The translations under genes were made by a program, and so were the position numbers. This document shows positions 41,368 to 62,881 of a stretch of 64,000 bases of DNA, one piece after another. The notes below the pieces were generated by a model. The model worked only from the letters and a program-made list of their open reading frames with translations, ran no database searches and had not been told where the DNA came from. The stretch's first letter is position 1. Each line of letters begins with the position of its first letter. The stretch covers positions 33,658,810 to 33,722,809 of the forward strand of contig NC_088304.1 in assembly GCF_032854445.1 (NCBI RefSeq), in the 5' to 3' direction. The stretch comes from Liolophura sinensis. Its lineage: Eukaryota > Mollusca > Polyplacophora > Chitonida > Chitonidae.

Positions 41368-41612
41368 CTTTATTTATTTATTTATTTATTTGAGTGGGGT
41401 TTACAACGAGCTCATCAATATTTCATACGATGGTGGCAGCATTATGGTGGTGGCAGCATTATGGTGGTGGAACGAATCACGACCATCCGCAGGTTGCTGC
41501 AGACCTTCCCACACACTGCCAGGGAGGAAGCCAGCATGAACTAGATTTGAACTCACAGCGGCCGCATAGGAGAGAGGCTCTTGGTCATTATGATGCGCAA
41601 GAGCGCCCCAGC
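41368..41612 (-). repeat. SINE-A copy beside the 44-bp satellite
   Basis: Long TTTATTTA tail, then a body in which GGTGGCAGCATTATG is duplicated in tandem, ACGACCATCCGCAGGTTGCT, and GCCAGCATGAACTAGATTTG. It ends about 50 bp before the satellite. Confidence 0.85.
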
Positions 41613-41662
41613 ACAATTTGAGTTTGGTTTTGTCAGCATTTGCAATTTGTTTCATAAATAAG

Positions 41663-44308
41663 GGTCCATGGACACAGAAACCATCTCAAGCTGACCGGTA
41701 AATGAGAGTCCGTGGACACAGAAACCATCTCAAGCTGATCGGTAAATGAGAGTCCATGGACACAGAAACCATCTCCAGCTGATCGGTAAATGAGAGTCCG
41801 TGGACACAGAAACCATCTCAAGCTGACCGGTAAATGAGAGTCCATGGACACAGAAACCATCTCAAGCTGATCGGTAAATGAGAGTCCGTGGACACAGAAA
41901 CCATCTCAAGCTGACCGGTAAATGAGAGTCCGTGGACACAGAAACCATCTCAAGCTGATCGGTAAATGAGAGTCCGTGGACACAGAAACCATCTCAAGCT
42001 GACCGGTAAATGAGAGTCCGTGGACACAGAAACCATCTCAAGCTAACCGGTAAATGAGAGTCCGTGGACACAGAAACCATCTCAAGCTGATCGGTAAATG
42101 AGAGTCCATGGACACAGAAACCATCTCCAGCTGATCGGTAAATGAGAGTCCATGGACACAGAAACCATCTCAAGCTGACCGGTAAATGAGAGTCCGTGGA
42201 CACAGAAACCATCTCAAGCTGATCGGTAAATGAGAGTCCGTGGACACAGAAACCATCTCAAGCTGACCGGTAAATGAGAGTCCATGGACACAGAAACCAT
42301 CTCGTGGACACAGAAACCATCTCAAGCTGACAGGTAAATGAGAGTCCGTGGACACAGAAACCATCTCCAGCTGATCGGTAAATGAGAGTCCATGGACACA
42401 GAAACCATCTCAAGCTGACCGGTAAATGAGAGTCCGTGGACACAGAAACCATCTCAAGCTGACCGGTAAATGAGAGTCCATGGACACAGAAACCATCTCA
42501 AGCTGATCGGTAATTGAGAGTCCATGGACACAGAAACCATCTCAAGCTGACTGGTAAATGAGAGTCCATGGACACAGAAACCATCTCAAGCTAACCGGTA
42601 AATGAGAGTCCGTGGACACAGAAACCATCTCAAGCTGATCGGTAAATGAGAGTCCATGGACACAGAAACCATCTCCAGCTGATCGGTAAATGAGAGTCCG
42701 TGGACACAGAAACCATCTCAAGCTGACCGGTAAATGAGAGTCCGTGGACACAGAAACCATCTCAAGCTGATCGGTAAATGAGAGTCCGTGGACACAGAAA
42801 CCATCTCAAGCTGACCGGTAAATGAGAGTCCATGGACACAGAAACCATCTCGTGGACACAGAAACCATCTCAAGCTGACAGGTAAATGAGAGTCCGTGGA
42901 CACAGAAACCATCTCCAGCTGATCGGTAAATGAGAGTCCATGGACACAGAAACCATCTCAAGCTGACCGGTAAATGAGAGTCCGTGGACACAGAAACCAT
43001 CTCAAGCTGACTGGTAAATGAGAGTCCATGGACACAGAAACCATCTCAAGCTGATCGGTAAATGAGAGTCCATGGACACAGAAACCATCTCCAGCTGATC
43101 GGTAAATGAGAGTCCGTGGACACAGAAACCATCTCAAGCTGATCGGTAAATGAGAGTCCGTGGACACAGAAACCATCTCCAGCTGATCGGTAAATGAGAG
43201 TCCGTGGACAAAGAAACCATCTCAAGCTGACCGGTAAATGAGAGTCCATGGACACAGAAACCATCTCGTGGACACAGAAACCATCTCAAGCTGACAGGTA
43301 AATGAGAGTCCGTGGACACAGAAACCATCTCCAGCTGATCGGTAAATGAGAGTCCATGGACACAGAAACCATCTCAAGCTGACCGGTAAATGAGAGTCCG
43401 TGGACACAGAAACCATCTCAAGCTGACCGGTAAATGAGAGTCCATGGGCACAGAAACCATCTCAAGCTGACCGGTAAATGAGAGTCCATGGACAGAAACC
43501 ATCTCCAGCTGATCGGTAAATGAGAGTCCATGGACACAGAAACCATCTCAAGCTGATCGGTAAATGAGAGTCCATGGACACAGAAACCATCTCCAGCTGA
43601 TCGGTAAATGAGAGTCCGTGGACACAGAAACCATCTCAAGCTGATCGGTAAATGAGAGTCCGTGGACACAGAAACCATCTCAAGCTGGCAGATAAATGAG
43701 AGTCCATGGACACAGAAACCATCTCAAGCTAACCGGTAAATGAGAGTCCGTGGACACAGAAACCATCTCCAGCTGACCGATAAATGAGAGTCCATGGACA
43801 CAGAAACCATCTCAAACTGACTGGTAAATGAGAGTCCATGGACACAGAAACCATCTCAAGCTGACAGGTAAATGAGAATCCATGGTCACAGAAACCATCT
43901 CAAGCTGACAGGTAAATGAGAGTCCATGGTCACAGAAACCATCTCAAGCTGATCGGTAAATGAGAGTCCATGGACACAGAAACCATCTCAAGCTGACCGG
44001 TAAATGAGAGTCCGTGGACACAGAAACCATCTCCAGCTGATCGGTAAATGAGAGTCCGTGGACACAGAAACCATCTCCAGCTGATCGGTAAATGAGAGTC
44101 CCTGGACACAGAAACCATCTCAAGCTGACCGGTAAATGAGAGTCCATGGTCACAGAAACCATCTCAAGCTGACCGGTAAATGAGAGTCCATGGACACAGA
44201 AACCATCTCAAGCTGACCGGTAAATGAGAGTCCGTGGACACAGAAACCATCTCAAGCTGACAGGTAAATGAGAGTCCATGGTCACAGAAACCATCTCAAG
44301 CTGACCGG
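41663..44308 (+). repeat. 44-bp satellite array
   Basis: About 60 tandem copies of a 44-bp unit (GGTAAATGAGAGTCC, then RTGGACACAGAAACC, then ATCTCAAGCTGAYC). Main variants are CCATGG/CCGTGG and CTCAAG/CTCCAG. A truncated 20-bp unit recurs with its junction CTCGTGGACA at 42301, 42849 and 43265, spaced 548 and 416 bp, which equal 12 and 9 full units plus 20 bp. The array is open on the minus strand over short spans, but no gene is implied. It lies between mannanase and RPL23A. Confidence 0.97.
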
Positions 44309-52006: not shown

Positions 52007-55000
52007 ATGTCTGCAGGAAGAACAGTAATAACACCCACTGTGCCCAAAGACAGAGTCATCAGTAAATTTCCACAGGTTTGTCTGTAGTTATACTTGTTTA
52101 TATCATCAACATTGCCAAAATTACATGCTGAGTAAAATAATGTGGAATACCCCAGGCAAAAACTCAACAACTGATGTTCTGTGTTCAATGAGGTCATAGA
52201 CTTGAATTCAGCTTTTGGTACTTCAGATGCGACTTTAAGTCAGAATGGTTGAATGTAATTCTGAAAACTATAAGCTGGGAAGAATGAAACAGATCTCAGA
52301 TCTAGGTTGTCAGGTACCGGTTGAAGGAAAGTGGTGTACTCTGGTTTCCTCCACCTGTAAACTAGGTCATAGCTGTTTATGATGAACATTCTTAAGTGTG
52401 ATGTTGCATAACTAAATAAGTAGAAATATTTTATTTTGAATGACATATTTAAAGTAAACATGCTTCAACATGCATATTGTCTGATTTTCTGATCTATTTG
52501 CTGGCCTTGAAAAATTGCCTGATATGGGAAAGTTGTAAAGGAGATTTTCAGTGGCTACTTGCTTTTGGGTGTTGACATTTCTTAAGCATATATGTATTAC
52601 CGTAAATATATTCTATGGCTTACACAGACTTGGGATGAAATCAGTTAAATTTATTGTACAGCGAAATTGTAAAACTTTTTTTCCTCTTTATATACAATGT
52701 ATCAGACCCCTTTATTATAACACCATTAATTAAAGACTGAAGTGATTAACATTTTTAGCTAATTTTCTGTTCCAGGCATTCCATGCTGATGCCTCGCCAT
52801 ACCAAAAATTAAACTTCCACCCCAAAGTGAAATCAGCCTGTTCTGAGCATAGAACTGGAACCGTTGGGTAATTACTAGCTGTGGTGATTAATAGTGACAT
52901 GCTCATTTTGATTAGATAATTGTTTCTGGTAACCGTTCATCGCTCTTTTATCTGGTGCTGCTTCACTTAGACGCCTTACCGAAGGCAAGTAAGCCACCCT
53001 GCCAGAGCCATCATACTGATACGAGTAAACCAGTTGTTGCACTATTCCCTTCATGTTTCAACCCTAGTCATTCATGAAACAGTTGAAATAAATACTGATA
53101 CTGTAAGTTTATAGATCAATTAAAAATAGTGTTTTAGACATGATAAGTGAAAACTTAAAGAGTGTGGTGTTTAAAACAGATGAAATAAATACTGATACTG
53201 TACAGAACTTAGTTGTAGAACATTTTATCTCCACTGCATTTGCTGCCAGTACAGGTGATTATATAATACATACATGTTATAATTAATTATATATGGTCAG
53301 CATGGTCAGGGCATATAATGGGTATCGTTTTTAGTCCCATAATTTGGGCTGAAATCAAGATATCGCTGAAATAAATCTAATATGAGGCTTAAATATGAGA
53401 CATAATAACAAAGATAATTGATTAAGGAATAAACAATATTAAATCACACATTTTCAATATATAATTAGTTAAAACAGACACATTTTTTAATATCATTTTA
53501 ATTTTGGCCTAATTTAAGCACCTATTATGGGTATGAAAAATTGCCTGTATAAGACAGATGATATTTGTAATTTATTGAAGGATCAGTTAATAGTACCAGT
53601 AGTCGTGAGTGTTGAGAAAAATGAGTTTAAGTTCGTCTTAACATTCACTGTAAAATGTACCATGTTTTCATGTTTCCCAGCCTGAAGATCTGTAAAGCAG
53701 TTCTAGTTGGTGATGTAGCTGTGGGGAAAACCTCGTTTGTCAACAGGTTAGTATTGCAGTTAAAAACTAAGTTAAGTTTGGAAAGTTATTATGTAAATGG
53801 GAATGCTTGTAATTGTGTGAATCTCTGCATCAGTTATCAATTTTTCAAAAGACACTGTAATCAAATGTGCAATTTTTATATCCAGTGTTAATACAAGAAG
53901 TCTGATTTGAAGAGATCTTTGTGATAGTTCAGAATTGAGTTTTTGGGGATCTGAGTTGCACACAAGTACTTACATGCTGATAAACTAAAATACATCGAGA
54001 AACTGGAGATTCTAAGCCAAAAAACCTGAACAATTTTGGTAAATGAGTATTATTGTATCTGTATAGGCGTACTACTTTGGCACTCTTCATTTCAGGAACC
54101 AGAATGACCACACTAACTTGTATATCACTGGTATTCAATATTTTTTGTGGCGGTGTTTAATCCTGTTGTATTTCACCGTGTGATTCAGTGGAAGTTGAAT
54201 GCTTGAAGTGTGCTGTAAGTGTGCTACTGGTGAACTAGTGGCATGCCTCTGAGAATCATTTATGACCTGGTTGGTTCTGTGTTTGTGTGAAGTTATTTTA
54301 TCAATACTACTTCATCTTGTTTGGCCTTTTCTTTTTGACATGTAGTGAGTGACTGTACATACGCATATTTTTCTTGACCACTTTGTTGGCCTGATGCTTA
54401 GACACAAAGCCGAGAGACTCAGGATCAAACCCGGGTCGGGTCATAAAAGATTTTAAAAATGGTAACTGCTACATCTCAGCACTGAGAGGTTAGAACATGG
54501 AAAAAGGACTGGTTCACCTGGTGTCAGTATAATGTGACTGGGTGTAGCTGTCATGTCTGGTGTCTTTGGCATGATACTTCAGTGGCGGAAACACTTTGGC
54601 GGTATGGACTCACCCTACCACAAGAAGACACGGTATATGTACACATACCTAATGACTTCATCGTCATATGACCCAAAAAGTGTTGAGTATGACATAAAAC
54701 CACCAAGCATTCATTCATCTGTTCATAATTTTATGGAGAGTGCGCCACACTCTTGTGCTTTGTCCGCAGGTTTTGTCATGACATATTTGACCGTGACTAC
54801 AAGGCCACTATAGGGGTTGACTTTGAGGTGGAGAAATTCAGTATTCTGGGTATTCCCTTTACTCTACAAATGTAAGTGTCTTTTGTATGTTTTTGAGCTC
54901 ATCTGTTAAATGATTTGTGGCTAGAATATCGCACTATTCATTTTATTAGTGGTTTCATCTTTGTTTTGCATTATTTGCTTCACCAATAAAATTGTCTGCC

Positions 55001-58000
55001 ATCATACAAGGGAAATGTTCCTGAGTATGGCATCGCTCAGATTATGATTGAATAAAAAACAAAAAAGATAACCCCATACATTTGGATGTTCATTGTAATC
55101 TTACCCTTTGGTTGCTCTCAGATATTGACACTGATACATGTAATTTCACAGTATTAAGGCATGCCATAAAAGTTTAAATTTCTTCTTGTAGATATTATCG
55201 TTTTGCCATCTGCTGTATAAGTACTGAAATGTCAACATTTAAACCACGTGTCAGCCGAAATATTATGTCAGTAAAAACTCGTTTGACATGGCTTTTTATT
55301 TTGTTTTGCAGCTGGGACACAGCGGGACAAGAAAGATTTAAGTGCATTGCTGCATCATACTACAGAGGAGCAAATGGTAAGATGTGGTCAGAGGCACATT
55401 TACAGTTGGTACTGTTATGGAGCTGAGCAAATGTTAAGTCTCTTTCAAAAAGTCTTTATTAGAGCATGTACTACCTGATTCTTCTAAATCTTGGAACACC
55501 TGCCCTGTTCATTTTAGCTAATGTATACATGTAATTCTAGCAAGAATGTTGGGTGTCTCTTTTCTCACATGGTTAGACCATCTAATGAACAACATACTCA
55601 TATCTTTACTTTTCCAAAAGGCTGGTGAAGAAATGTAGTTTTCTACTTTCAACACTTCTAATATCTGTTCTAAAGTTTAGAAGAATTAGGGTATGTATGT
55701 CAACAATGCAGATGCCAAAGAAAAAACTTGTATCTAGCCAATATGGCTTCATTTGTGTGTAGACAGTTGTGTGTTCACTGATGTCCGAGATGTACAGGTT
55801 TGTATATGTTTTGTTGAGCATTTTAGCAGTTTGAGCAGTTTTGACAGAAACTCAAACGTCACAAATAAATGTGTATAGGATTTCAAGAATCATGTGCTTT
55901 GGAATGTTAGTAGCATTGACTGCTGTATATATTTTCGTGTATATTTATGTTGGCCAGTGTTACGTGTGTTTTCAGTTGTGATGGTCGTATTTGACCTGAC
56001 AGATGAAGTCTCCCTGGCTAATGCCTCTCGGTGGATGGAGAGTGCTACGGAGAATGCCACCAACCCTGTGCGATTCCTTGTCGGCACCAAGAGAGACCTG
56101 CTGGTGAGAAATAAAAGGAGAAGTGTGTGTTTATAGGAGAGATTATTTAGATGCACGTGAGAATAAATAAAAGTGAGAATATATTTACCAGATCGTGCAG
56201 CTGTAAATGCTGTAGAATGTAACATGGCACAACTTACCTTGCACATTACAAAATGCTTCATCTTTTTCAAATTTTAAAAGACAAGCCAAAAAATGTTTGG
56301 CACAGAAAGAAGAAAGCAGATACTTACGCATGTATTTGTGTTTATGTATTTGTTTGTTTTTTGGAGTTTTGTTTTACACATTGTACTTTATATTTTATTT
56401 ATGTATTTATTTATTTGATTTGTGTTTTACGCTGTACTCAAGAATATTTCAGTTATACGACGGCGGCCAGCATTATGGTGGAAGGAAACTGGACAGAGCC
56501 TGGGAGAAACCCTCAACCATCCACAGGTTGCTGGCAGACCTTCCCACATACGGCCGGAGAGGAAGCCAGCTGTACTTTATATTTTACACTTTGACTGTAA
56601 ATGTTATACCAACAGGGTGAAAGTTTTTTTTGAATGCGAGAGTGAGAGGGCCTGAGACGAAGATCAACTACTGTTGTTGAACGAGTGCATGTAATCATCT
56701 GTAGAGAAAGTTTGTCAATATTTAGTTTTATAATGAATTAGAGCCTCGGTAAATTGAGAGTTCACTCTGTACTAAGGCACTGTGAGCTTGCCACAGTATG
56801 GGAAAAATCCTAAAAAGACCAACTGAAGATAGAATTATCTAAACTTCATTGAGTAGACGATTATGAATTCTGGATGCACTGAATATGTTCTTATGTTGGC
56901 AGTCAGAAGCTGCCTACACCGAGGTGGAGTCACATGCTGTTAAAGTGGCAAATGAACTGGAGGCAGAGTTTTGGGGTGTTTCTTCTAAGACAGGTAAGTT
57001 AGAGGAAGATACTTGTCATGAGCAATGGTGATTACTCTGAGTTAGCGGAATGTACTTGTCATGAGCAATGATGATTACTCTAAGTTAGAGGAAGGTACTT
57101 GTCATGAGCAATGTTGATTACTCTAAGTTAGAGGAATGTGCTTGTCATGAGTGATGTTAATTACTCTAAGTGAGAGGAACGTACTTGTCATGAGCAATGT
57201 TGATTATTCTAAGTTAGAGGAAAGTACTTGTCATGAGCAGTGGTGATTACTCTAAGTTAGAGGAACGTACTTGTCATGAGCCATGTTTATTACTCTAAGT
57301 TAGAGGAACGTACTTGTCATGAGCATTGATGATTACTCTAAGTTAGAGGAAGATACTTGTCATGAGCGATGTTAATTACTCTAAGTTAGAGGAAGATACT
57401 TGTCATGAGCAATGTTTATTACTCTAAGTTAGAGGAAGGTACTTGTCATGAGCGATGTTGATTACTCTAAGTTAGAGGAAGATACTTGTCATGAGCAATT
57501 ATGATTACTCTAAGTTAGAGGAAGATACTTGTCATGAGCAATGTTGATTACTCTAAGTTAGAGGAACGTACTTGTCATGAGCGATGTTGATTACTCTAAG
57601 TGAGAGGAAGATACTGGTCATGAGGAATTATGATTACTCTAAATTAGAGGAATGTACTTCTCATGAGCAATGTTGATTACTCAAAGTTAGAGGAACGTAC
57701 TTGTCATGAGCAATGGTGATTACTCTAAGTTAGAGGAACGTACTTGTCATTAGCAATGATGATTACTCTGAGTTAGAGGAACGTACTTGTCATGAGCAAT
57801 GGTGATTACTCTAAGTTAGAGAAACGTACTTGTCATGAGCAATGTTTATTACTCTAAGTTAGAGGAACGTACTTGTCATGAGCGATGTTGATTACTCAAA
57901 GTGAGAGGAATGTGCTTGTCATGGGCAATGTTGATTACTCTAAGTTAGAGGAACGTACTTGTCATGAGCGATGTTAATTACTCAAAGTGAGAGGAATGTG

Positions 58001-61000
58001 CTTGTCATGAGTGATGTTAATTACTCAAAGTGAGAGGAATGTGCTTGTCATGAGCGATGTTGATTACTCTAAGTTAGAGGAACGTACTTGTCATGAGCAA
58101 TGTTTATTACTCTAAGTTAGAGGAACGTACTTGTCATGAGCGATGTTGATTACTCTAAGTTAGAGGAATGTGCTTGTCATGAGCGATGTTGATTACTCTA
58201 AGTTAGAGGAACGTACTTGTCATGAGCGATGATGATTATTCTTAGTGAGAGGAAGATACTGGTCATGAGCAATTATGATTACTCTAAATTAGAGGAACGT
58301 ACTTGTCATGAGCGATGTTAATTGTTCTAAGTTAGAGGAACCTACTTGTCATGAGCGATGTTGATTACTCTAAGTTAGAGGAACGTACTTGTCATGAGCG
58401 ATGTTAATTACTCTAAGTTAGAGAAACGTACTTGTCATGAGCGATGTTAATTACTCTAAGTTAGAGAAATGTACTTGTCATGAGCAATGTTGATTACTCT
58501 AAGTTAGAGGAAGGTACTTGTCATGAGCGATGTTGATTATTCTAAGTTAGAGGAACGTACTTGTCATGAGCGATGTTAATTACTGTAAGTTAGAGGAAGA
58601 TACTTGTCATGAGCAGTGGTAATTACTCTAAGTTAGAGGAAGATACTTGTCATGGGCGATGTTGATTACTCTAAGCTAGAGGAATGTACTTGTCATGAGC
58701 GATGTTAAGTACTGTAAGTTAGAGGAAGGTACTTGTCATGAGCAATGTTGATTATTCTAAGTTAGAGGAACGTACTTGTCATGAGCGATGTTAATTACTC
58801 TAAGTTAGAGGAAGATACTTGTCATGAGCAATGTTAATTACTCTAAGTTAGAGGAAGATACTTGTCATGAGGAATTATGATTACTCTAAGTTAGGGGAAG
58901 GTACTTGTCATGGGCAATGTTGATTACTCTAAGTTAGAGGAACGTACTTGTCATGAGCAATTATGATTACTCTAAGTTAGAGGAAGGTACTGGTCATGGG
59001 CAATGTTGATTATTCTAAGTTAGAGGAACGTACTTGTCACGAGCGATGTTGATTATTCTAAGTTAGAGGAACGTACTTGTCATGAGCAATGGTGATTACT
59101 CAAAGTTAGAGGAACGTACTTGTCATGAGCAATTATGATTACTCTAAGTTAGAGGAACGTACTTGTCATGAGCAATGTTGATTACTCTAAGTTAGAGGAA
59201 CGTACTTGTCATGAGCGATGTTGATTACTCAAAGTTAGAGGAAGGTACTTGTCATGAGCAATTATGATTACTCTAAGTTAGAGGAAGGTACTTGTCATGA
59301 GCAATGTTGATTACTCTAAGTTAGAGAAACGTACTTGTCATGAGCGATGTTAATTACTCTAAGTTAGAGAAATGTACTTGTCATGAGCAATGTTGATTAC
59401 TCTAAGTTAGAGGAAGGTACTTGTCATGAGCGATGTTAATTACTCTAAGTTAGAGAAACGTACTTGTCATGAGCGATGTTAATTACTCTAAGTTAGAGAA
59501 ATGTACTTGTCATGAGCGATGATGATTACTCTAAGTTAGAGGAACGTACTTGTCATGAGCAATGGTGATTACTCTAAGTTAGAGGAAGATACTTGTCATG
59601 AGCGATGTTGATTACTCATGTCATGTTATGTCATGGACATAATATGATGAACATTAGCTGATAAGTTCACCAATCTTCAACATGAGTAAAAGATGAAGTT
59701 ACCATAAGGTGATGAATTTATTGATCATCGACGTGAACAAAAGCTGAAGTCATGATTATAAGGTGATGAGTTCATTGATCATCGACGTGAACAAAAACTG
59801 AAGAGTCATGATTATAAGGTGATGAGTTCATTGATCATCGACGTGAACAAAAGCTGAAGTCTTGATTATAAGGTGATGAGTTCATTGATCATCGACGTGA
59901 ACAAAAACTGAAGAGTCATGATTATAAGGTGATGAGTTCATTGATCATCGACGTGAACAAAAACTGAAGAGTCATGATTATAAGGTGATGAATTTATTGA
60001 TCATCGACGTGAACAAAAGCTGAAGTCATGATTATAAGGTGATGAGTTCATTGATCATCGACGTGAACAAAAGCTGAAGTCATGATTATAAGGTGATGAG
60101 TTCATTGATCATCGACGTGAACAAAAGCTGAAGTCATGATTATAAGGTGATGAGTTCATTGATCATCGACGTGAACAAAAACTGAAGAGTCATGATTATA
60201 AGGTGATGAGTTCATTGATCATCGACGTGAACAAAAACTGAAGAGTCATGATTATAAGGTGATGAATTTATTGATCATCGACGTGAACAAAAGCTGAAGT
60301 CATGATTATAAGGTGATGAGTTCATTGATCATCGACGTGAACAAAAGCTGAAGTCATGATTATAAGGTGATGAGTTCATTGATCATCAACGTGAACAAAA
60401 ACTGAAGAGTCATGATTATAAGGTGATGAGTTCATTGATCATCGACATGAACAAAAACTGAAGAGTCATGATTATAAGGTGATGAGTTCATTGATCATCG
60501 ACGTGAACAAAAGCTGAAGTCATGATTATAAGGTGATGAGTTCATTGATCATTGACCTGAGCAAAATGTGAAGAGTCATGACTGTAGGGTGTTGAGTTCA
60601 CTGATCATTGACTTGAACAAACCGTGAAGAGTGATGAATGTAAGGGGATGAGTTCAACTTAAACAAGTGAAGGGTCATGAACCTAAGGTGAGGTGTTCAC
60701 GACTTTGTGACAGTAACAGAACTGTAAGGTGATGAGTTCACTGATCATCGACGTGAACAAAAGCTGAAGAGTCATGATTATAAGGTTATGAGTTCATTGA
60801 TCATCGACGTGAACAAAAGCTGAAGTCATGATAATAAGGTCATGAGTTCACTGATCATTGACCTGAGCAAAATGTGAAGTGATGAATGTAAGGGGATGAG
60901 TTCAACTTAAACAAATGAAGGGTCATGAACCTAAGGTGAGGTGTTCACGACTTTGTGACGGTAACAGAACTGTAAGGTGATGAGTTCACTGATCATCGAC

Positions 61001-62881
61001 GTGAACAAAAGCTGAAGAGTCATGATTATAAGGTTATGAGTTCATTGATCATCGACGTGAACAAAAGCTGAAGTCATGATTATAAGGTGATGAGTTCATT
61101 GATCATTGACCTGAACAAAATGTGAAGAGTCATGACTGTAGGGTGATGAGTTCACTGATCATTGACTTGAACAAACGGTGAAGAGTGATGAATGTAAGGG
61201 GATGAGTTCAACTTAAACAAGTGAAGGGTCATGAACCTAAGGTGAGGTGTTCACGACTTTGTGACGGGAACAAAACTGTAAGGTGATGACTTCACTAGTG
61301 TTCAACTTGAACAAAAGGGGAAAGCTTGTGAAGAGACATGTCACATCCCATGGCCTTGTAGGAGTTTATTGGTAGAAATTGATTAGAATTAGCAAGCAGG
61401 TCAGAAAGAAATATCTGTGGTGGCTTTTTGTCTGTTTTCATCCCACTTCCTATATAACTGAAATTATATTATCTGTTGTCTTTCCTTTTAAACAGAGTGT
61501 GGTGTTGACATAAATAAGACCATTTATTTCATGTGAAGGTAGAATGAGGACATACTTTGATTATCCATTCATTGTTTATAGTGTTCAATTTTAAGGTTAT
61601 TGAAAATATATCCAGTCTATAAATACTTTATCTTGATCTGTTTATGTGCTCATGAATTTTAATGCAGCTCTATAGGAAGCCTTGCTCTCAGTTGAAAATT
61701 TTCTTACGTGTGAATGACAGCTGTACCCTCTCATGTTTACAGGTGATAATGTTGTCAATTTCTTCTTCCGTGCGGCGGCCTTGACCTTTGATGCTGCAGT
61801 TTTACGTGAAGTAGAATCGGGGCCCTCTCATCCCAGACAGATAGGAAATGACCTTGTCAGTAAGTCACACCAAATGGGAGCGTTTTATTTATAACTTATT
61901 TATGCAGTACCTGTTAGGGATTTTGGTATTGCCTAATTTACATGCGAAATGTGTAATGCTTTAATACTGGTTTACAGACAGAAAACTTCTTAGGTCCTCA
62001 GCAATGAAGGTAGCAAGTGAGAAATCAATCAAATAAACAGTTGTGAAGAAGATTGAAGGATATACTGACAGATATTTTCCTTTATAGCAGCACAATTACC
62101 TAGGAGGCTTTCACCAATGCTGTAGCTGTGAGCTCAAGTCCAGCTCATGCTGGCTTTCTCTCCGGTTGTATGTGGGAAGGTCCTTCAGCAACCTGCGGAT
62201 GGTCATGGGATTCCCCAGTTTCCTCCCACCATGACACCAGTCGTATAAGTGAAATATTCTTGAGTATGGCGTCAAACACCAACCAAATGAATAAATTAAT
62301 CAGAATGATGTGATAGATATCAGGATTTCTGTCATAGATAACGTTAAGACAATGTGACTGCAACAGGGAAACACTGCTGTTAGTAATGATGTAACAGCCA
62401 AAATAATGTTAGAATTGAGTTTAAACCCAAAGTATGTGAAAACGTCCTTTTCCTGTTGATTGTGCTCAGCGTGCTGATTACATATGTGTGTGTACAGCTA
62501 TTTTGTCGTAGTTTGTCTTGTTGTTGCAAAACTTATGAAGGATGCTGATTTTTTTTTTTTATTACTTATGGGGGTAAACGTCGTGACTTCCAACAAGTCA
62601 AGTATATTTTGTTTATTTTCTTGTCTCGATATGTGGAATAATTTACCTGTGTTGAGTATAACATGTCTGAACTCTTAAGCGCTGTGTAAGGGCATCACGA
62701 CTCCCCTGTCTCCCCTGACGTGCTTTGAGAGAGTTATTACCCTTGGTAACATGACTCTTTTATTTGTGATATGTTACAGGGATAAAACAGGCCTGTTTTG
62801 TTCTTTTCAGAGGTGCAGAAGCAAGAATCTCAGGATCTGTATGACAGGGGTTCAAAGAAGAGTTTGAAGTGTTGTAATTAA
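52007..62881 (+). CDS. RAB34: Rab GTPase of the RAB34/RAB36 group
   Basis: Small GTPase; vertebrate relatives act at Golgi, lysosome and in ciliogenesis. Nine exons (52007-52075, 52776-52867, 53681-53746, 54770-54871, 55312-55376, 55976-56103, 56903-56993, 61743-61859, 62811-62881) join in consistent phases to give 266 aa (human RAB34 about 259). An N-terminal extension of about 55 residues carries the group-specific FHPKV and EHRTGTVG. P-loop GDVAVGKTS is at 64-72, switch I KATIGVDFE, G3 WDTAGQE at 111-117, G4 TKRD at 169-172, G5 SSK at 201-203, and FFFRAAALTFDAAVL is typical of the group. The C-terminal KCCN offers two cysteines for prenylation. Intron 7 (4.75 kb) is mostly two satellites. 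RAB34 versus RAB36 cannot be separated by eye. Confidence 0.92.
52941..53056 (-). repeat. SINE-B fragment in RAB34 intron 2
   Basis: CGCTCTTTTATCTGGTGCTG, CTTACCGAAGGCAAGTAAGC and CATACTGATACGAGTAAACC match the reversed SINE-B body. Confidence 0.8.
54383..54719 (+). mobile_element. SINE-C copy in RAB34 intron 3
   Basis: GGATCAAACCCGGGTCGGGTC in the head (B-box-like), GTCAGTATAATGTGACTGGG in the body, and the 3' end TCGTCATATGACCCAAAAAG with GAGTATGACATAAAACCACC. It ends about 50 bp before exon 4. Confidence 0.83.
56398..56570 (-). mobile_element. 5'-truncated SINE-A with 16-bp target-site duplication
   Basis: The insert runs from the TTTATTTATTTGATTTGTG tail to GGAGAGGAAGCCAGC, so it lacks the tRNA-like head. 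TGTACTTTATATTTTA flanks it at 56382-56397 and 56571-56586. The exact duplication shows truncation happened at insertion. It lies in RAB34 intron 6. Confidence 0.93.
56995..59620 (+). repeat. 43-bp satellite starting at the RAB34 intron 7 splice donor
   Basis: About 60 tandem copies of a 43-bp unit (TAAGTTAGAGGAACGTACTT, GTCATGAGCAATG, TTGATTACTC). The first unit begins at base 2 of intron 7, so it shares the splice donor GTAAGT; later units read CTAAGT at the same place. GTAAGT reappears at 58585-58590 and 58714-58719. Variants at AGCAATG/AGCGATG and GAACG/GAAGA/GAATG recur in blocks. Confidence 0.97.
59660..61300 (+). repeat. 54/56-bp satellite, second array of RAB34 intron 7
   Basis: The unit CATGATTATAAGGTGATGAG, TTCATTGATCATCGACGTGA, ACAAAAGCTGAAGT is 54 bp; a variant ending ACAAAAACTGAAGAGT is 56 bp. 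About 16 regular copies run to about 60560, followed by a longer composite unit marked by AACTTAAACAARTGAAGGGT at about 60655, 60905 and 61209. Confidence 0.95.
62094..62300 (+). repeat. SINE-A copy in RAB34 intron 8
   Basis: TTTCACCAATGCTGTAGCTG, GAGCTCAAGTCCAGCTCATG, GCAACCTGCGGATGGTCATG, TTTCCTCCCACCATGACACC and AAGTGAAATATTCTTGAGTA with an AATAAATTAAT tail. Confidence 0.88.

Follow-up and report, generated by a model that had tools for sequence, protein, structure and literature searches.

An intron of a RAB34-like gene begins with a 43-bp minisatellite

The window, a stretch of 64,000 nucleotides of the Liolophura sinensis genome (NC_088304.1, positions 33,658,810 to 33,722,809), contains a RAB34-like gene, as an earlier note on this DNA had proposed from its sequence. 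In tblastn, a human RAB34 protein sequence gave linked HSPs (combined E 3e-36) with collinear exons at 52773, 53685, 54756, 55313, 55978, 56909 and 61739, and the exon that precedes the array is the sixth of the coding exons recovered by this homology, which leaves its earlier label of exon 7 tentative. Direct reading of the sequence gives its 3' end as ...TTCTTCTAAGACAG, followed by the intron start GTAAGTTAGAGGAAG; the intron covers 56994-61742 (4,749 nt), and the exon downstream of it encodes DNVVNFFFRAAALTFDAAVLREVESG directly after TTTACAG (Table 1). The exon end is conserved (SSKTG/DN here versus SSLTG/EN in human RAB34; slashes mark junctions throughout) and aligns without added residues, and hence the donor has not moved. 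Read-through past the exon meets a stop codon inside the first repeat unit (KLEEDTCHEQW, then stop).

The array takes up the first 2.6 kb of this intron. TRF reports a period of 43, 61.0 copies and 0% indels at 56995-59617, and a manual split yields 61 units, each exactly 43 bp long (2623 = 61 x 43). The "60-copy satellite" of the earlier note is therefore confirmed as a tandem array and corrected in its copy number, and its start at intron base 2 holds, with the +1 G at 56994 and unit 1 running from 56995. These are head-to-tail copies of a unit within the 10-100 bp range of minisatellites; across all 61 there are zero indels despite 10% divergence between units.

Table 1. Features of the array-bearing intron and its flanking exons, in window coordinates.
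Feature	Position	Strand	Basis
Coding exon, RAB34-like, encodes SEAAYTEVESHAVKVANELEAEFWGVSSKTG, ends in phase 1 with ...AAGACAG	56903..56993	+	tblastn and sequence; start predicted from cAG at 56900-56902
5' splice site CAG/GTAAGT, +1 G at 56994, full U1 complement	56991..56999	+	sequence; donor-matrix score 8.7; U1 duplex -12.6 kcal/mol
43-bp array, 61 units, no indels, mean pairwise difference 10.5%, 51 distinct sequences	56995..59617	+	TRF, unit split, statistics
Unit 1, intron +2 to +44, proposed founding segment	56995..57037	+	unit split, statistics
Units 37/38 junction with G, ACT/GTAAGT, moderate donor-like site	58582..58590	+	unit split, donor scan
Units 40/41 junction with G, ACT/GTAAGT	58711..58719	+	unit split, donor scan
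Unique spacer 3' of the array, without unit-like sequence beyond chance	59618..59703	+	shuffles, P 0.43
Second array, ~54/56-bp units, same intron	59704..61300	+	TRF, donor scan
Next coding exon, begins GDNVVNFFFRAAALTFDAAVLREVESG...	61743..61859	+	tblastn and sequence; acceptor TTTACAG before, donor GTAAGT after

The sequence that follows the donor G is repeated in internal units, as had been noticed: the first 20 nt of unit 1 recur exactly in nine units, TAAGTTAGAGGAAGATACTT being present in unit 1 and in internal units 9, 10, 12, 13, 38, 39, 43, 44 and 61. Over all 43 bp, unit 1 differs from its nearest unit at one position and from the units on average at 4.3, a similarity far beyond chance. 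The base before the unit start is C at 58 of the 60 internal junctions, which read C/TAAG or C/AAAG (the first base is A instead of T in six units), and G only before units 38 and 41, in agreement with the earlier observation that GT is missing from all but a few internal copies. The longest exact duplication inside the array is 128 bp long, with its copies 21 units apart, consistent with block exchange.

Both array edges are sharp. At the left breakpoint (G/T) the base before unit 1 differs from the unit-ending C, and at the right breakpoint (C/A) the base after the last unit differs from the unit-starting T; with no base shared at either breakpoint, the duplicated segment is uniquely defined as intron +2 to +44, provided that subsequent point mutations have not obscured the edges. 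The flanking exon contains no unit-like sequence above chance (P 0.74 against shuffles). A search of the 609-Mb genome with up to 3 mismatches, which scored best candidates only and could miss rare distant relatives, gave 60 matches, all inside the array. The unit, found at no other locus, accordingly does not behave as a dispersed satellite or a transposon-borne repeat, and related genomic copies as its source were sought in the 609 Mb and none was found.

The second array of the intron bears no similarity above chance to the 43-bp unit, and we rejected kinship between the two. Its TCATGATTATAAGGTGAT resembles the intron acceptor TCATGTTTACAGGTGAT (P 0.025 versus shuffles, weak after several tests), a weak hint that the 3' end of the intron may have been the source of this second array. 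Elsewhere in the window, a large minisatellite at 41655-44308 has a 44-bp unit with a higher-order period of 132 bp; most of its units contain CGGTAAATGAG or AGGTAAATGAG, so that donor-like sequence occurs in many copies; as far as seen, it is not at an exon. Copies of a dispersed element with GGTTGCTGGCAGACCTTCCCAC-like sequence, which we take to be familiar from mollusc genomes and which may point to the host clade, lie at 56460-56580, 41431-41560 and 62100-62260, one of them inverted.

Unit 1 stands out neither as basal nor as the most derived unit

Unit 1 ranks 34th of 61 in mean distance, with three changes from the consensus and one from unit 13, and edge units are not more divergent than the others (4.33 vs 4.53). 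A tree of the units (43 bp per unit, no outgroup, arbitrary root) has support above 0.9 at 7 of 48 nodes, poor resolution that is due to the units being only 43 bp long, and places unit 1 at midpoint rank 46 of 61. Unit 1 thus stands out neither as basal nor as the most derived and is not recognisable as ancestral; a tree of this resolution does not discriminate between the two outcomes that the earlier note had set as its test. The two G-junction units, 38 and 41, are somewhat near unit 1 (2 and 3 differences, respectively), and we considered them as relics of an ancestral G; the proximity is not significant (P about 0.08).

A probable origin in tandem duplication of the first intron bases

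Expansion from the 5' splice site, the origin suggested in the earlier note, is the simplest history for an array with sharp, same-phase ends, no homology at its breakpoints and a unit confined to this locus; the loss of GT by selection that the note coupled to it is not borne out (see below). From the arrangement of the units, we judge it likely that the array is an intronic minisatellite produced by tandem duplication of intron +2 to +44, and that it probably has no function. One break would have fallen between intron +1 and +2 and the other after +44, duplicating the 43-bp intron start in tandem, and slippage or unequal exchange would then have raised the copy number to 61. Unit 1 would have been kept in place, still supplying positions +2 to +6 of the authentic donor, whereas each later copy would have been preceded by the unit-ending C and born as C/TAAG, and hence not as a donor. 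Since the +1 G lies outside the duplicated segment, copies would lack GT from birth and no selected loss is needed. Splicing would remove the array together with the intron, and it probably serves no purpose; this absence of function, like the order of events, is what we infer.

The phase of the ends bears on this history. Both ends of the array are in the same phase (61.0 copies), and zero overhang was found in 7 of 67 low-indel arrays in the 264 kb that we surveyed, compared to ~2% (1/43) for a random cut at period 43, a rate that favours simple duplication over random truncation about 4- to 5-fold. It also weighs on the alternative of an array that formed within the intron and was joined to the donor by a later deletion between the TAAGT of the donor and that of an internal unit, with 5 bp of microhomology leaving the donor intact. 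Such a deletion would account for an edge placed precisely at the TAAGT common to donor and unit and for a donor G that precedes the first unit only, and most units could have provided the homology; but it requires an extra event and would yield the same-phase right end by chance only, in about 1 of 43 cases, and we regard it as unlikely.

A donor at the edge of one array may be due to chance

The region is rich in minisatellites: in the surveyed 264 kb (the window and a further 200 kb of the genome), ~9.6% of bases lie in tandem arrays, and 54 arrays reach 2.8 copies or more, roughly one in every 5 kb. Among these, only the 43-bp array has a strong donor right at its edge. Extrapolated to the whole genome, this amounts to a total on the order of 100,000 arrays. 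An animal genome is expected to have some 200,000 introns, and with about that number chance alone would place the start of some hundred arrays within one base of a donor, so that one such case does not speak for a special mechanism. That splice donors are preferred start points for tandem duplication, for instance because transcribed DNA breaks close to exon ends, seems to us quite improbable. If it were true, many introns should have arrays starting from +1 or +2, and these would form a class of donor-templated minisatellites distinct from the boundary-spanning mirages considered below; donor-start arrays that proved common in the genome would indicate a mutational bias at exon ends.

No clear sign of selection on donor-like sites or of special U1 pairing

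The earlier note had read the missing GT as the outcome of selection against extra donors, with a unit that first began with G and in which C later took its place. The G at two internal junctions, in units somewhat close to unit 1, would suit such a history, as would the slight shortage of strong donor-like sites relative to shuffled sequence. Scored with a simple donor matrix, which was built from general splice-site frequencies and not trained on Liolophura sinensis, the array has 22 donor-like sites with a score >0 (25.6 +/- 4.9 in Markov shuffles), 3 with a score >3 (5.4 +/- 2.1) and 0 with a score >5 (1.5 +/- 1.2): there is no clear deficit against the shuffles, strong sites being slightly fewer, and weak selection may act on the stronger ones. 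Internal junctions score at most 2.8, compared to 8.7 at the true donor, which makes it unlikely that internal units are used as donors.

Selected removal of GT would, however, need a change at 58 of 60 junctions or a takeover by C; if the break fell behind the G, one or two C-to-G changes suffice. Variability at the junction column is not unusually low (two minor letters, a number not exceeded in 63% of columns). Two units carry GTAAGT and six carry A/GTGAGA, and the neighbouring array is full of AAG/GTGA, with 23 such sites retained in the same intron (20 AAG/GTGATG and 3 AAG/GTGAGG, the latter scoring 7.1), besides 3 AAT/GTAAGG. With copies that would have lacked GT from the start, selection against extra donors lacks support, and we consider an origin followed by selected removal of GT very unlikely.

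Nor is the part of the unit that could bind U1 specially kept, as had also been suggested: conservation of the TAAGT block is at the median (rank 22 of 43), no higher than in other blocks, and internal units pair with U1 no differently from shuffled sequence, with a best pairing per unit of -4.5 kcal/mol on average versus -4.8 +/- 2.1 in shuffled 49-mers. That the array is a U1 decoy or telescripting array, whose repeated partial U1 sites by the donor aid U1 recruitment or suppress premature polyadenylation, is hardly credible, because the TAAGT repeats beside a perfect donor, although they leave 5 bp of possible pairing per unit, form duplexes with the U1 5' end at unit starts of mostly -2.6 kcal/mol, far from the -12.6 kcal/mol at the donor. 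Alongside the anatomy, phase and uniqueness described above, the array shows no clear donor depletion and no special conservation.

Comparison with known systems

Amphioxus mirages are minisatellite-like tandem duplications at exon-intron boundaries, described in Adh3, the globins BflGb6 and BflGb9, PGBD5 and troponin C, with units of 10-72 bp in Adh3, normal splicing reportedly undisturbed, turnover within clusters and, in BflGb6, 3-6 reported copies (PMC3087553, PMC3902484). The 43-bp array is likewise a short-unit tandem duplication at an exon-intron boundary of an invertebrate gene. Mirage units, however, span the boundary and many contain AG/GT, whereas the Liolophura sinensis unit starts at +2 and holds no exon sequence, donor GT is absent from 58 of the 60 copies, and the 61 copies are far above the 3-6 of BflGb6. 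With a unit that lies wholly on the intron side, the array falls outside the definition of a mirage.

The human IFI6 (G1P3, 6-16) minisatellite, as cited in PMC4526556 from Turri et al. (1995), lies at an exon end and contains the authentic donor, and several of its repeat units act as donors to give several mRNAs. On that account, the two minisatellites are alike in position and in including the authentic donor, but differ in that Liolophura sinensis has a consensus donor only at the first junction. Introns are also known to be gained when AGGT segments are duplicated in tandem in the genome (reviewed in PMC3443670), which likewise involves a breakpoint at splice-site-like sequence; there, an exonic AGGT is duplicated and a new intron made, whereas here an existing intron would have been lengthened. 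In unit length, divergence and array length, the 43-bp array is like ordinary intronic minisatellites, from which it differs in having a splice donor as its left edge.

Duplication from +2 would mean that minisatellite expansion can extend an intron right from its start and yet create no extra donors, a break one base past the junction sufficing for copies that lack GT, and it cautions that a duplication breakpoint alone can yield a pattern mistaken for selection. Mirages and the IFI6 minisatellite are likely the closest precedents, cases that the 43-bp array resembles in its probable origin. We judge it to be an ordinary minisatellite at an unusual boundary and file it as an intronic minisatellite.
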